In this document: piece by piece, positions 27,181 to 34,510 of the stretch
Position numbering within the stretch: the first letter of the stretch is position 1
Layout: each line of letters begins with the position of its first letter
Source: Actinomycetota bacterium
GTDB lineage: Bacteria; Actinomycetota; Acidimicrobiia; Acidimicrobiales; AC-14
NCBI GenBank assembly: GCA_040754375.1
Contig: JBFMCT010000004.1
Span: 1-64,000, forward strand
Direction: 5' to 3'
Length of the DNA: 64,000 nucleotides
The notes under the pieces: model-generated
The model's input: the letters and a program-made list of their open reading frames with translations, nothing else
Databases searched by the model: none
What the model was told of the DNA's origin: nothing
Position numbers and translations under genes: made by a program

Positions 27181-27987
27181 TCACGGGATCTTCAGGTCGC
27201 GGTGGAGGAACCGCCAACCGCCCACGACGGCCACGGCCCCGGCCAGGATGTAGGGCACGGCCAGGGCGGCCACCGTCGGGCTCTGGGCCAGCAGGTTGCG
27301 GTCGAGGTACCAGTGCCAGGGCGAGACGAACCGGGCGGCGTCGAACACGTCGGTGGCCGCGATCAGGCTCTGGAGCAGGTAACCGGCCACCGAGAACGTG
27401 CTGGCCACGGCCACGGCCACCCCCCGCCGGCCGAAGGCCGCGCCGGCCGCGAAGGCCAGCGAGGAGCTGAGCAGGCCGAGGCCGAGCAGGGCCACACCGG
27501 CCACCAGCACCCGGCCCACTCCGACCCCGTCGAGCAGCCCCACGGCCGGGCCCACGACCAGCAGGGCGGCCAGCCCGGCGACCGTCAGGCCGGCCACCAG
27601 CACGACCATGGCCAGGTAACGCTCGGCCGCCAGCCGGGCCCGGGTGACGGGGTGGGCGGCCACCAGCTCGAGCGAACCGTCCTCTTCCGAGCCCCCGATG
27701 GCCCGGGCACCGAGGCCGATCCCGAACACCATCACCAGTAGGGGGAACAGGGTGGAGAACAGCCGGCTGTGGAGGTAGCCCGGGGCGGACGTGAAGGCGA
27801 TGCCCTCACCACTACCGAACAGGGCCCTGAGGGCCTCGGGCAGGTCGCGCACCAGTTCCTCGAACTGCTGCTGGCCCCGCACGCTGGGCCACAGGGCGGC
27901 TGTGAACGCCACCACCGCGGCCATGCCCACGGCCCACCACAGGAACGAGCGGCGGTGGTCGCGGGCGAACCGGCGGGCCACCGTCAC
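27181..27987 (-). CDS. ABC-2 type transporter permease
   Basis: A 268-residue membrane protein with six predicted helices. It starts FARDHRRSFLWWAVGMAAVVAF, has a large extracellular loop after the first helix (PEALRALFGSGEGIAF), and contains ARAIGGSEEDGSLELVAAHP, a segment typical of ABC-2 permeases that export drugs, lipids or peptides. Its ATG overlaps the ATPase stop by 4 bp, so they form an exporter pair. Substrate unknown. Confidence 0.9.
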   Translation of the reverse strand: MTVARRFARDHRRSFLWWAVGMAAVVAFTAALWPSVRGQQQFEELVRDLPEALRALFGSGEGIAFTSAPGYLHSRLFSTLFPLLVMVFGIGLGARAIGGSEEDGSLELVAAHPVTRARLAAERYLAMVVLVAGLTVAGLAALLVVGPAVGLLDGVGVGRVLVAGVALLGLGLLSSSLAFAAGAAFGRRGVAVAVASTFSVAGYLLQSLIAATDVFDAARFVSPWHWYLDRNLLAQSPTVAALAVPYILAGAVAVVGGWRFLHRDLKIP

Positions 27988-28889
27988 CGGTCGTCCTGGC
28001 GGTAGTAGTCCAAGAAGACCTCCTCGAGATCGGCCTCGTGGGTGACGATGCGCTCCACGGTCAGAGAGCCGGCGGCCGCTTTGAGGGCGGCGTCCACCGG
28101 GCCCTCGACGACCAGGCGCACAAGTCCGCCGCCCGGGCCCGACGGGGCGTGGGCCTCGACCACCCCGGCCGCGCCCTCGAAGGCGGCCAGGTCGGCCGGG
28201 CCGGAGACGAACAGGTCGATGCGCTGGCGGGCCCGGGCCCGCAGCTCGGCGATGCTGGAAAGAGCCACCAGCCGGCCCTGGCGCAGGATCCCCACCCGGT
28301 CGGCCACCCGCTCCACCTCGGGCAGGTAGTGCGACGACAGGAACACAGTGGCTCCCTCCGCCACCTGTTCACGCACGAGCTCGAGGAACTCGTACTGCAA
28401 GATGGGGTCGAGGCCCGAGGTCGGCTCGTCGAGCACGACCAGCTCGGGGCGGTGCATGAAGGCCTGGACGATGCCCACCTTGCGCTTGTTGCCGGTGCTC
28501 AGTTCGCCGATGGGCCGGGTCGGGTCGAGCCCGAACCGTTCGAGCAGGGTGGGGAGCAGGGAAGGGGCGGGCGTCCCCCGCAGGGCTCCCAGGAAGGCGA
28601 ACAGCTCGTCGGCCCGGTAGCGGGCGTCGAGATGGACATCGGCGGGCAGGTAGCCCATGCGGGCGCGCACGGCCGGGTCGCCACCGTGGCCGCCGAGCAC
28701 GCTGACCGACCCCCGGGTGGGGCGCAGGAAGTCGAGCATGAGGCGGATGGCGGTCGTCTTGCCGGCCCCGTTGGGGCCCAGGAACCCGAACACCTCGCCG
28801 GGCTGCACCGAGAGGTCCACGTCCTCCAGGGCCCGGACGGCCCCGAAGTGCTTGGTCAACTCCCTGGTCTCGACCGCGGGCCCGTCCAT
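27984..28889 (-). CDS. ABC transporter ATP-binding protein
   Basis: A 301-residue ATPase. It has Walker A GPNGAGKTTAIRL, the ABC signature in the region GELSTGNKRKVGIVQAFMH (LSTGNK rather than LSGGQ), Walker B LVVLDEPTSGLDP, and the His loop in FLSSHYLPEVERVAD. LSTGNKRKVG is typical of the drug/lantibiotic exporter subgroup. The C-terminal 80 residues form the extension seen in such ATPases. I place the start at the ATG 28889; the frame is open further upstream but runs into a long inverted repeat. It pairs with the downstream permease. Confidence 0.93.
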   Translation of the reverse strand: MDGPAVETRELTKHFGAVRALEDVDLSVQPGEVFGFLGPNGAGKTTAIRLMLDFLRPTRGSVSVLGGHGGDPAVRARMGYLPADVHLDARYRADELFAFLGALRGTPAPSLLPTLLERFGLDPTRPIGELSTGNKRKVGIVQAFMHRPELVVLDEPTSGLDPILQYEFLELVREQVAEGATVFLSSHYLPEVERVADRVGILRQGRLVALSSIAELRARARQRIDLFVSGPADLAAFEGAAGVVEAHAPSGPGGGLVRLVVEGPVDAALKAAAGSLTVERIVTHEADLEEVFLDYYRQDDR

Positions 28890-28960
28890 GCGTTGGCGCA
28901 CGCTACCGGCCCGTCCGAAAACGAGGGCGGAAGAGGAGCCGCAGCGGTACCGTGTTCGAC

Positions 28961-29090
28961 TAATGCCTCCACGGTCAAGGTTTGCCTCGTTTCTCGCCCT
29001 ACCTTCGGTTGGTCCTGGCCAACTCGCCCGCGGTCGACACCTCTTGGGGTCAAGCGAGAAACGAGCCAAACCTTTCCTGATGAGGCATTA
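28961..29090. repeat. 130-bp element with 37-bp terminal inverted repeats
   Basis: The left arm (28961-28997) and right arm (29054-29090) match at 31 of 37 positions when one is reverse-complemented, starting TAATGCCTC on each side. The arms are more AT-rich than the surroundings. The element fills the gap between the ABC ATPase start and the nfeD-like start, whose GGAGG ribosome-binding site abuts the right end. It may be a MITE-like insertion or a large cruciform regulatory element. Confidence 0.75.
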
Positions 29091-29104
29091 GGAGGTCGTC
29101 GTCG

Positions 29105-29599
29105 ATGGACTTCAGTTCGCCCGAGACCTGGCGGTGGATCTTCCTCGTGCTGGCCGTGGGGTTGACGGTCGGGGAGATCGCGGTGGCCGGATCGTTCTTC
29201 CTGCTGCCCTTCGGTGTCGGGGCCGGGGCGGCCGCCGTGGCCGGCTTCCTGGGAGCCCCCGTCGGGATGCTGTGGCTCGTCTTCGTGGTCGTGTCGGCGT
29301 TGGCTTCGTCGGTGTTGTGGCCCCTGCGCCGCCGCCTCGACAGCCGCGAGCGGTCCGAGATCGGGGCCGACCGCTGGGTGGGCCGCCAGGCCTTCGTGCT
29401 GCGGGACATCCCCGGCTCGGTGGGCGCGACCGGCACAGTCCGCCTCGACCGGGAGGAGTGGAGGGCCGAGAGCCTGGTGGGGGTGCCCATCCGGGCGGGC
29501 TCCACTGTCCTGGTCAGCCGGGTGGACGGCACCCGCCTGGTCGTGCTCCCTCTCGACGAACCGCCCTTGTTGCCCCCCATTTCGCAGGACAAGGAGTAG
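29105..29599 (+). CDS. NfeD-family membrane protein
   Basis: A 164-residue protein with an N-terminal membrane region of about three helices (WRWIFLVLAVGLTVGEIAV, FFLLPFGVGAGAAAVAGFLG, MLWLVFVVVSALASSVLW). A C-terminal OB-fold domain follows (GRQAFVLRDI, GTVRLDREEWRAES, TRLVVLP), the standard NfeD pattern. NfeD proteins work with SPFH/stomatin-type proteins in membrane microdomains; the SPFH gene follows 3 bp later. It has a GGAGG ribosome-binding site 9 nt before the ATG. Confidence 0.92.
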   Translation: MDFSSPETWRWIFLVLAVGLTVGEIAVAGSFFLLPFGVGAGAAAVAGFLGAPVGMLWLVFVVVSALASSVLWPLRRRLDSRERSEIGADRWVGRQAFVLRDIPGSVGATGTVRLDREEWRAESLVGVPIRAGSTVLVSRVDGTRLVVLPLDEPPLLPPISQDKE

Positions 29600-29602
29600 T
29601 CA

Positions 29603-30574
29603 ATGTCGGTCATCGTCGTGCTGGCGGCCATCGCCTTTGTGATGTTCGTGGTGGTCGTCAGCGCCGTGAAGATCATCCGGCCCTACGAGCGGGGCCTGGT
29701 CGAGCGGCTCGGCAAGTACCACGCCACCGAGGAGCCGGGCCTGCGGCTGATCTTCCCGTTCATCGACCGCATGGTGCGTGTCGACATGCGTGAGCGGGTG
29801 GTCGACGTGCCGCCCCAGGAGGTCATCACGTCGGACAACGTGGTCGTGTCAGTGGACGCCGTCGTCTACTACGAGGCCACCGACCCCCGGCGGCTCGTCT
29901 ACAACGTCGTCGACTTCTACATGGCCGTCACCAAGCTGGCCCAGACCAACCTGCGCAACGTGGTCGGGGACATGCAGCTCGACGAGGCCCTGACCTCCCG
30001 GGACACGATCAACACCAAGCTGCGGGAGATCCTCGACGACGCCACCGACAAGTGGGGCACCCGGGTGGTGCGGGTGGAGATCCAGCGCATCGACCCGCCC
30101 AACGACGTGATGAGCGCCATGCACGAGCAGATGAAGGCCGAGCGCACCCGGCGGGCGGTCGTCACCGCCGCGTCCGGTGAGCGGGAGGCGGCCATCACCC
30201 GGGCCGAGGGGGCCAAGCAGTCGGCCATCCTCGAGGCCCAGGGCCTGCGCGAGTCGGCCATCTTGGCGGCCGAAGGCGAGGCCTCGGCCACCCGCACGGC
30301 GGCCGAGGCCGAACGCTTCCGCCAGGAGGCGGTGGCCGAGGGCGAGGCGGCCGCCATCCGCGCCGTCTACCAGGCCATCCACGACGGCCGGCCCACGTCG
30401 GAGCTGATCGCCATCAAGTACCTCGAGGCCCTGGCCACCATCGCCGACGGCCACGCCACCAAGCTGTTCCTGCCGACCGAGCTCAGCTCCGTCTTGGGCG
30501 CCCTGGGCGGCATGAAGGAGCTGTTCCAGGCCATGGACGGCGCGGCCCACGACGGCGCCCCCGCCCGCCACTGA
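29603..30574 (+). CDS. SPFH/stomatin-type (band 7) protein
   Basis: A 323-residue membrane-associated protein. An N-terminal hydrophobic helix is followed by VKIIRPYERGLVERLGKY, the band 7/SPFH start. Later comes the conserved run from RVVDVPPQEVITSDNVVV to NLRNVVGDM, then a coiled coil (around residues 180-250, rich in Glu/Ala/Arg). It resembles QmcA/HflK-like stomatins. Paired with NfeD, it likely organises membrane proteins or proteases. It is convergent with the His-rich gene. Confidence 0.93.
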   Translation: MSVIVVLAAIAFVMFVVVVSAVKIIRPYERGLVERLGKYHATEEPGLRLIFPFIDRMVRVDMRERVVDVPPQEVITSDNVVVSVDAVVYYEATDPRRLVYNVVDFYMAVTKLAQTNLRNVVGDMQLDEALTSRDTINTKLREILDDATDKWGTRVVRVEIQRIDPPNDVMSAMHEQMKAERTRRAVVTAASGEREAAITRAEGAKQSAILEAQGLRESAILAAEGEASATRTAAEAERFRQEAVAEGEAAAIRAVYQAIHDGRPTSELIAIKYLEALATIADGHATKLFLPTELSSVLGALGGMKELFQAMDGAAHDGAPARH

Positions 30575-30656: not shown

Positions 30657-30950
30657 TCAGTGCTCGTCCCAGTGGCCCTCGTGGACCGCGTGGCGGTGGC
30701 CGTCGTGGACGTAGTCGAGGTGACCGTCGTGGTCGACGGCTTCGTGGCCGCAGTTCTCGCCGTGGCCGTGGCCGTGGTCGTCATGCACGGCGTGGGCCGT
30801 CACGCACTCGTCCCAGTGGCCGTCGTGGAGGCGGTGGGTGTGGCCCTCGTGGACGTAGTCGACGTGGTCGTCATGGGCGACCGAGGCGTGCCCGCACGAG
30901 GGGCTGTGGGCGTGGGTGTGATCTTCGTGGACGGTGTGGATGGAAGTCAT
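30657..30950 (-). CDS. Histidine-rich metal-binding protein
   Basis: A 97-residue protein of which about a third is His, with frequent Asp, Glu and two CGH sites. It is built of two similar halves: CGHASVAHDDHVDYVHEGHT and CGHEAVDHDGHLDYVHDGHR, each ending GHWDE. There is no membrane helix, so despite the name 'zinc transporter permease' given to relatives, it is better described as a soluble zinc-binding or buffering protein. Its ATG overlaps the stop of the SmtB-type regulator by 4 bp, so zinc control is likely. Confidence 0.85.
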   Translation of the reverse strand: MTSIHTVHEDHTHAHSPSCGHASVAHDDHVDYVHEGHTHRLHDGHWDECVTAHAVHDDHGHGHGENCGHEAVDHDGHLDYVHDGHRHAVHEGHWDEH

Positions 30951-31276
30951 CGTTCTCCTTTCGTGGGCGTGGCCCGACGGCGGCCGCGCTCGGTGGCGTG
31001 CACCACGGCGTCGTGCACGATGTGGGCGACGTGCTCGTCGCCCAGCGAGTAGGCGATCTCCCGGCCCCGGCGCTGGCCGGTGACCAGGTCAAGGGATCGC
31101 AGCACCCGCAGGTGCTGGGAGACCAGGGGCTGGGTCACGCCCAGGGCCTCCACCAGTTCGTGGACGCACCGGGGCCCCTCCCTCAGCTCGAGCACGATGG
31201 CCAGCCGGTGCTCGTGGGCCAGTGCCCGCAGCAACTCGGCCGCCGGCACGAGCGAGCCGTCGTTGGTCGTGTCCAC
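30947..31276 (-). CDS. ArsR/SmtB-family zinc-sensing repressor
   Basis: A 109-residue winged-helix repressor. The recognition region is VHELVEALGVTQPLVSQHLR and the wing RGREIAYSL. The C-terminal helix DEHVAHIVHDAVVHATE has Asp and His two apart, then His and Glu at +11 and +14, exactly the alpha-5 zinc site of SmtB/CzrA. The Cys-based alpha-3 site is absent, so a zinc (or cobalt) response is expected. It starts with GTG at 31276 and is coupled to the His-rich gene. An AT-rich imperfect dyad upstream (about 31277-31312) is a likely operator. Confidence 0.9.
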   Translation of the reverse strand: MDTTNDGSLVPAAELLRALAHEHRLAIVLELREGPRCVHELVEALGVTQPLVSQHLRVLRSLDLVTGQRRGREIAYSLGDEHVAHIVHDAVVHATERGRRRATPTKGER

Positions 31277-31368: not shown

Positions 31369-31506
31369 CTAGGAGGCTGGTGTCTAGACCCTCCCCAGGC
31401 GGCCGACCGCCCCGTTCGCGGCTCGGCGACACTGCAAAGGTGCTGGTCAGGGGCAGGTCGGCCGCTCGGCGCGAAGCGCCGATCGCGAAAGACACCAGCC
31501 TCCTAG
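31369..31506. repeat. 138-bp inverted-repeat structure
   Basis: A perfect 17-bp outer stem (31369-31385 with 31490-31506) encloses a second perfect 10-bp stem (31399-31408 with 31456-31465). A small hairpin lies near 31467-31481. The right arm contains the stop codon of the septum-formation-domain gene (31503-31505). The span is about the same as the element at 28961-29090 but the sequences differ. It could be a structured 3' UTR, a MITE or an RNA element. Confidence 0.7.
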
Positions 31507-32150
31507 GCCGGCCCGGCGGGCGCGGGACCGGCCCTGACCGAGCCCACGAGAGGATCGCCCCCGGGGCCGGTCACGTAGCAGACGACCCGGCGTTCACCGC
31601 GGTCCCAGTCCGAGGAGGCAGGGACGGCCACGAAATGAGCGGGCCGGGGTCGGCCCGCCGCCACCCCGGCGTACGCATCGACATCGGACCGGCAGCGGCC
31701 CAGTGCCTGCCGGACGAGATCGTTCACGGGCGGGTAGGGCCGGCCTGGCTCGCCCTCGACGGCGAAGACCGTGACGATCTCGGCTATGTGGCCCTGTCCG
31801 CAGGCCACGACGCGAGCGAGGAGGTAGGGGGCCCGGTCGAGGCAGGCCCCAGGGCCCAGGTCGCGAGGTGACACCGTGTCGACGAACGGGTGCGTCGCCG
31901 CTGGCACCTGCGCCACCCACCGGTCGCGGGGGCTAGGGCGGTCGCCGTCGAGCAACCCGACGTTCACCACGACCCTCAGGACCAGCGTTGCCGCCAGCAA
32001 CGCGCCGATGCCCACTCCCCGCGCCACCTCGGCCAGCTTCCGCTTGGGGGGCGGGGGAGGACCTGGGTACGGGCCCGTTCCCGGGAGCCAGGCGGGCGGA
32101 GGCGGAGGGGGAGGCGGAGGGTTCGGGGTAGGCCATCCCGCCGTGCTCAC
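31503..32150 (-). CDS. Septum-formation-domain membrane protein
   Basis: A 215-residue protein. Residues 1-35 are Pro-rich (a run of nine prolines), followed by one membrane helix (GIGALLAATLVLRVVVNVGL). The extracytoplasmic domain (LGPGACLDRAPYLLARVVACGQG, then HIAEIVTVFAVE, YPPVNDLVRQALGRC and WDRGERRVVCYV) has the Cys and spacing of the actinobacterial septum-formation domain. That family's exact role in division is not settled. The stop lies inside an inverted repeat. It is divergent from the metallophosphoesterase gene. Confidence 0.75.
   Translation of the reverse strand: MSTAGWPTPNPPPPPPPPPAWLPGTGPYPGPPPPPKRKLAEVARGVGIGALLAATLVLRVVVNVGLLDGDRPSPRDRWVAQVPAATHPFVDTVSPRDLGPGACLDRAPYLLARVVACGQGHIAEIVTVFAVEGEPGRPYPPVNDLVRQALGRCRSDVDAYAGVAAGRPRPAHFVAVPASSDWDRGERRVVCYVTGPGGDPLVGSVRAGPAPAGPA

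Positions 32151-34436: not shown

Positions 34437-34510
<74 letters not shown>

Follow-up and report, generated by a model that had tools for sequence, protein, structure and literature searches.

A 124-bp hairpin upstream of nfeD in an Acidimicrobiales genome is very probably a miniature inverted-repeat element moved by an IS630-type transposase

The RUP element of Streptococcus pneumoniae is described as a 107-bp intergenic repeat with terminal repeats like those of IS630-Spn1, found at TA-containing sites (PMC2229807). In the same account, Correia/NEMIS, ERIC, and similar repeats are shorter than 200 bp, form a long stem-loop, carry TA at their termini, and encode no protein; with the exception of RUP, that account has IS matches to their ends as not looked for or not found. 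For IS630 of Shigella and for ISY100, a 2-bp TA duplication was reported (PMC2170065). MITEPsy1 of Pseudomonas syringae, a 100-bp miniature inverted-repeat element (MITE), is described at CTAG or YTAA sites with a 4-bp duplication, and is listed there as "IS5?" and thought to derive from ISPsy2 (PMC3189936). Our literature search gave no report of miniature inverted-repeat elements in Acidimicrobiales.

Here, we analyzed a hairpin in a 64-kb stretch of Acidimicrobiales DNA (the window; C4:1-64000), which belongs to a 3.5-Mb, 105-contig, 97.5%-complete assembly (the own genome, G000). A preliminary description had offered a MITE, a large operator, or a structured leader as explanations. Of the three, the MITE is best supported, by dispersed copies near unrelated genes, precise borders, a matching transposase in relatives, and absence from the fetched relatives with nfeD-SPFH. 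We consider it very probable that the 124-bp unit at 28964-29087 is a non-autonomous MITE for which an IS630-type transposase acted in trans. The kind of element was already known; the family is new.

A long hairpin between an ABC exporter gene and nfeD

The arms of the inverted repeat, at 28961-28997 and 29054-29090, pair at 31 of 37 positions, which reproduces the preliminary description; with one base added outward per arm (28960-28997 and 29054-29091), 32 of 38 are paired. This is the sole site in the window with arms of at least 31/37 and a loop of up to ~100, and no such site arose in five 2-mer-block shuffles. The single-strand fold has an energy of -62 kcal/mol (z -7.3), and none of 200 shuffles was equally stable. 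The element has a GC content of 57.6% compared with 72.3% for the window, so the label "AT-rich" in that description is apt only relative to the surroundings. The extent of 130 bp holds for the hairpin; alignment with the other copies refined the mobile unit to 124 bp, TGCC...GGCA, plus 4-base border remnants. The features of the locus are as follows.

27984-28889, minus strand: neighboring ABC-2 exporter ATPase, outside the element (PF00005, 5e-24)
28960-28963: left border tetramer CTAA, either a CTAG target duplication that has changed or a symmetric variant; most of the family members listed, some of them selected by this motif, have CTAG here
28964-28997, plus strand: left terminal inverted repeat, TGCCTCCACGGTCAAGGTTTGCC..., matching at 16/22 the terminal repeat on the gene-3' side that L206 and L211 have in common
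28998-29053: element interior, in which no gene was recognised and which is not significantly similar to the interior of the IS
29054-29087, minus strand: right terminal inverted repeat, reading TGCCTCATCAGGAAAGGTTTGGC... on that strand, 17/22 to the L206/L211 gene-3'-side terminal repeat
29088-29091: right border tetramer TTAG, its AG inside the Shine-Dalgarno-like AGGAGG of nfeD (29090-29095)
29105-29599, plus strand: neighboring NfeD-like protein, outside the element (PF01957, 5e-11)
29603-30574, plus strand: neighboring SPFH/band 7 protein, outside the element (PF01145, 1e-42)

The element thus occupies the gap between the divergent ABC-2 exporter ATPase gene (minus strand, ATG at 28889) and the NfeD gene (plus strand, ATG at 29105), which precedes the SPFH gene; the Pfam matches agree with the placement first proposed. 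Listed open reading frames do cross the element, and by eye none of them is gene-like there. At gathering thresholds, the only Rfam match in the window was a tRNA at 34437-34510, and a known RNA family for the hairpin was dropped on this result. A phage or plasmid origin was also dropped, with no match even when exact-pattern scans of viral contigs were included, and an attC-like or BIME-like anatomy was rejected by eye. Elsewhere in the window, the frames at 30657-30950 and 30947-31276 (both minus strand) place, by eye, a repeat-built histidine-rich 97-aa protein directly downstream of an ArsR-like regulator frame, possibly a metal-binding pair.

The AGGAGG that is completed by the AG of the right border sits nine bases 5' of the nfeD ATG, which would suit the later co-option of a MITE for nfeD, as promoter spacer, terminator, or mRNA stabiliser, a role compatible with the MITE reading and one for which ERIC elements are described as a precedent at the mRNA level (PMC2229807). 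However, a CTAG target followed by GAGG would already yield AGGAGG before insertion, and we consider co-option unlikely.

Dispersed copies and related hairpins

The preliminary description had called for a search for further copies. Using BLAST and a covariance model, we located five full copies of ~124 bp in the own genome, at C4:28960 (the window copy), C4:90090, C9:31384, C8:32702 (minus strand), and C71:1797, together with halves or fragments on C18, C28, C19, C35, and C59 and a 32-bp deletion derivative at C6:94787 (minus strand); several of the copies are decayed. Between the C9 copy (31384-31515) and the window copy, only 2 of 124 positions differ (98% identity), which suggests that the element moved fairly recently. 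The full copies adjoin unrelated genes: GNAT and Na/H exchanger genes for C9, a thioesterase gene for C8, and MaoC and alpha/beta hydrolase genes for C71. As in a MITE, a length below ~600 bp without a transposase gene (124 bp, no gene recognised) is combined with terminal inverted repeats (31/37) and with dispersed copies that share borders.

A position between divergent genes and a strong fold are also what a regulatory site of the ABC exporter or nfeD would show, be it an operator, an attenuator, or a structured leader, and the five copies carry paired changes, for example U-A to C-G at columns 37/109. The excess of such changes is slight, however: five pairs changed on both sides, a number that 25 of 500 shuffles reached. 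A consensus search, for sigma-70-like signals only, found no promoter or terminator at the window copy. We then compared 29 other SPFH loci fetched from relatives. None had an ABC gene beside SPFH and none carried a two-ended element; six had a single end-like match (17-18/23), in no case with CTAG alongside. The closest orthologue (L010, 80% identical) has a different upstream gene and is missing the element. A single-copy region, conserved in relatives with the same genes, had been named as the outcome that would favor a regulator site; instead, the element is multi-copy and missing from the fetched nfeD-SPFH relatives. An operator or leader was rejected on this absence and on the copies near unrelated genes, and we give a regulatory site only the barest chance of being correct. 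In the MITE reading, the hairpin would follow from the presence of two long terminal repeats and would not have been selected as an RNA or an operator.

BLAST of the window element against 298 genomes of the order, with two candidates scored per genome, revealed no full copy beyond the own genome; the matches came from three genomes, namely the own genome and two with short matches of 23 and 31 bases. An exact 26-mer scan of the genome contig collection gave no match, and a first gapped pattern, loose and mis-sized, gave counts below the control in ten of ten genomes. Weak matches of the covariance model in sister genera led to hairpins of 165-167 bp that share the end octamers and not the interiors; a further weak match, G003:C212, is a hairpin without the element's ends. 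The gapped pattern CTAGTGCC...GGCACTAG was present in 11 of 397 genomes of the order, and the own genome scored zero because its border bases are altered. By eye, eight of the 11 (G001, G006, G008, G013, G175, G238, G319, and G368) show element-type ends, and three look unrelated (G331, tRNA-like; G318, a tandem repeat; G163, unclear). Hairpins of ~98-183 bp with other interiors and the same ends, TGCC...GGCA between CTAG tetramers, are found in eight other genomes of the order, from five families, with borders that end at CTAG. With a 13-base end pattern, G013 gave 32 matches and G175 gave 28, compared with seven and zero, respectively, for a reversed-pattern control.

Among these genomes, G013 has a hairpin family of 97-98 bp with CTAGTGCC ends (L167, L168, and L175), shorter than the other families. 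At G368:C76:4149-4170 (L140), one CTAG is common to two element ends (GGCACTAGTGCC), as if an element had landed in another's border. The G318 repeat (C55:11871-12037) is a 31-bp tandem repeat with CTAGTGCCGGAACCAGCGGACACAGTCGG and has only the end octamer in common.

The preliminary description had also asked for empty sites. None was found for the window copy among the 29 other SPFH loci, all without the ABC gene. In G006, an element starts at the TAG stop of a sugar-transferase gene (PF02397), between that gene and a glycosyltransferase gene. The orthologous genes in G000:C69 and G003:C294 (55 and 59% identity) end in TGA with the next gene immediate, by eye; this element-free junction shows absence of the element rather than an exact empty site. 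In a third orthologue, G004:C19 (62%), the element is absent but the downstream sequence differs, so this locus is uninformative on the junction.

IS630-type elements with matching ends

To follow up the proposed check for an associated transposase, nine genomes were searched with PF13358 (DDE_3), which gave ten loci in five of them. Two loci, L206 (G008) and L211 (G238), are bounded by CTAGTGCC ends on both gene sides and form elements of 1245 and 1226 bp, respectively, borders included. Their proteins are IS630-family transposases (NF033545, 2e-39 and 9e-45, 135.8 and 153.4 bits against a 100-bit cut-off) and also pass the PF13358 cut-off, as expected for IS630-type DDE transposases. By eye, the last codons of both genes (ANVA and the stop) lie within the terminal repeat, such that the repeat is also coding.

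Counted after the border tetramer, the left and right ends of the window element match the gene-3'-side end common to L206 and L211 at 16 and 17 of 22 positions, and none of 20000 letter shuffles matched as well for either end. A lone match of 17/23 to any of nine end sequences occurs at four chance-like places in the window and is not rare; the IS630 link therefore rests on both ends in register at two termini, which occurs nowhere else in the window. Agreement between MITE and IS ends is closer in several sister families and in Streptomyces diastatochromogenes, and the G013, G319, and 98-bp types fit the L206/L211 end less well (11-14/22). The scores of the C71 and C8 copies in this comparison, which came from out-of-register slices, were left out of account. 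Terminal repeats in common with an autonomous element, a further mark of a MITE, are thus provided by L206 and L211.

Relatives of the L211 protein were found at 76 loci in genome contigs. Most are from Streptomyces and other Actinomycetota; several MAGs of Acidimicrobiales and Acidimicrobiia are included, as is one MAG each with the label Acidobacteria and Chloroflexi. Among the 36 loci with a near-complete gene that were examined, 20 had both ends recognised (at least 18/26). S. diastatochromogenes has a full IS copy plus two 169-bp MITEs with near-identical ends, and S. triticisoli an IS copy plus MITEs of 137, 224, and 226 bp with similar ends. The interior of the own subfamily is unlike the IS interior and unlike the ~167-bp families, so the interiors give no sign of descent by internal deletion.

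The DDE_3 search of the own assembly found no transposase with matching ends. Its only DDE_3 gene (L203, on C60) belongs to a different IS630-family element, 1326-2567, 1242 bp with borders, whose ends, CTAG followed by TGTCCTGTAAGGC, are a different set. The transposase check was therefore positive for relatives and negative for the own assembly, in which, at 97.5% completeness, the window MITE looks orphaned. We propose that an IS630-family transposase, supplied in trans, would bind both TGCC... terminal repeats, excise the element, and insert it at a CTAG site, thereby duplicating four bases; we infer both the IS630-type class of the enzyme that moves this subfamily and the cut-and-paste step. 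The transposase gene may since have been lost, may lie outside the assembly, or may only have been passing through. At the level of sequence, the observations comprise multiple exact-border copies, sister-genus families, and full IS630-type elements with like ends and CTAG borders.

Target sites and comparison with known systems

The preliminary description had seen no clear target-site duplication, and for the window copy this is right: CTAA/TTAG contains no direct repeat. Other copies have a duplication of 4 bp, mostly CTAG. Of the 20 IS copies, not all of which are independent, 12 are flanked by CTAG on both sides and three by another tetramer that is identical on the two sides (TTAG in L229, ATAG in L244 and L267); in the other five, CTAG is present only on the left and the right end is less well matched. 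In Streptomyces sp. V4I2 (L242, L243, L244, and L246), three copies are identical over 1232 bp and the fourth has ATAG/ATAG in place of CTAG/CTAG, its only differences being at base 1 and at the fourth-last base; a fifth copy is diverged and not comparable. Such a paired change is what a 4-bp duplication predicts, whereas under a TA duplication the terminal base would each time have had to mutate to the same letter by chance. Our initial guess of a 2-bp TA duplication, as in the IS630 family, was dropped on these border tetramers: they do contain TA, but within a duplicated unit that reads as 4 bp. As read from the borders, the IS630 clade with these ends duplicates four bases, NTAG and usually CTAG, beyond TA. 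In a listing of 63 elements, 41 have CTAG/CTAG, a biased count because many were preselected by the CTAGTGCC pattern; C8 and L267 are absent from the listing, and some of its rows, L272, L273, L301, and L324 among them, are doubtful.

In the own genome, C71 has CTAG on both sides; C4:90090 and C8 have it on one side only, opposite CGAG and an altered tetramer, respectively. Three copies have inverted rather than direct tetramers: the window copy (CTAA/TTAG), C9 (CCAG/CTGG), and the C6 derivative (CCAG/CTGG). Border changes in the relatives' hairpins are mostly one-sided. Since the window and C9 copies differ inside by only 2/124, independent decay at all their borders looks unlikely; our guess is that inverted tetramers arise by template switching at the hairpin base. 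The inverted-repeat-replacing insertion described for IS1272 (PMC5678879) was considered for these borders and set aside, with no further link.

Inverted tetramers are odd for a DDE transposase, and a different enzyme could have moved a MITE-like repeat of this kind, either an IS5-type transposase or a single-strand mechanism of the REP/RAYT type that uses the hairpin as substrate. IS5-type transposases also favor CTAG/YTAR with 4 bp, and a REP/RAYT system consists of a short REP hairpin with a GTAG foot plus a RAYT gene. MITEPsy1, with its "IS5?" listing, has the same CTAG and 4-bp duplication (PMC3189936). However, 20 IS630-family gene loci are bounded by ends of this type and, by eye, each element forms a single long hairpin, not the pair of short ones seen in REP, and its ends differ from REP. 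We therefore regard another enzyme as highly improbable and retain the IS630-type transposase.

On balance, we favor a broader interpretation, in which a distinct Actinomycetota IS630 clade makes an NTAG 4-base duplication instead of a TA one and drives hairpin MITEs of ~98-226 bp from Acidimicrobiales to Streptomyces. Insertion in a C-TAG stop codon or a CTAGGAGG ribosome site would leave the signal intact because CTAG is restored on both sides, and the inverted tetramers of the own genome would hint at repair or template switching. A preference for stop codons was tested: 69 of 180 element-end CTAG sites have at least 100 open codons upstream compared with 209 of 702 other CTAG sites, a weak difference. 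In a search of the open literature, we recognised no report of a 4-bp duplication in the IS630 family. If true, the 4-bp duplication of this clade breaks the textbook TA rule. For the locus itself, an apparent giant operator is explained as mobile DNA, avoiding a false regulatory annotation, and hairpin repeats of the poorly studied Acidimicrobiales are tied to a named transposase family.

Compared with the known systems as published, the element resembles RUP and IS630-Spn1 in being a small intergenic repeat with IS630-family-type ends and TA in the insertion site. It differs from RUP in sequence, host phylum, and a CTAG border of 4 bp, in that its partner was not found in the own genome, and in having five full copies against 108 per genome (PMC2229807). 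The features given for Correia/NEMIS and ERIC, a size below 200 bp, a long stem-loop, TA at the termini, and no protein, are all present here; unlike for those repeats, IS with ends of the window-MITE type were identified in relatives. The partner elements match the same transposase family model as IS630 and ISY100, relatives of Tc1/mariner, and share TA in the target, but their clade duplicates NTAG (4 bp) rather than the TA (2 bp) reported for those two. Finally, the family is like MITEPsy1, as that element is described, in being a short MITE with a CTAG target and a 4-bp duplication, and is distinguished from it by ends that read TGCC... rather than GGAAGG....
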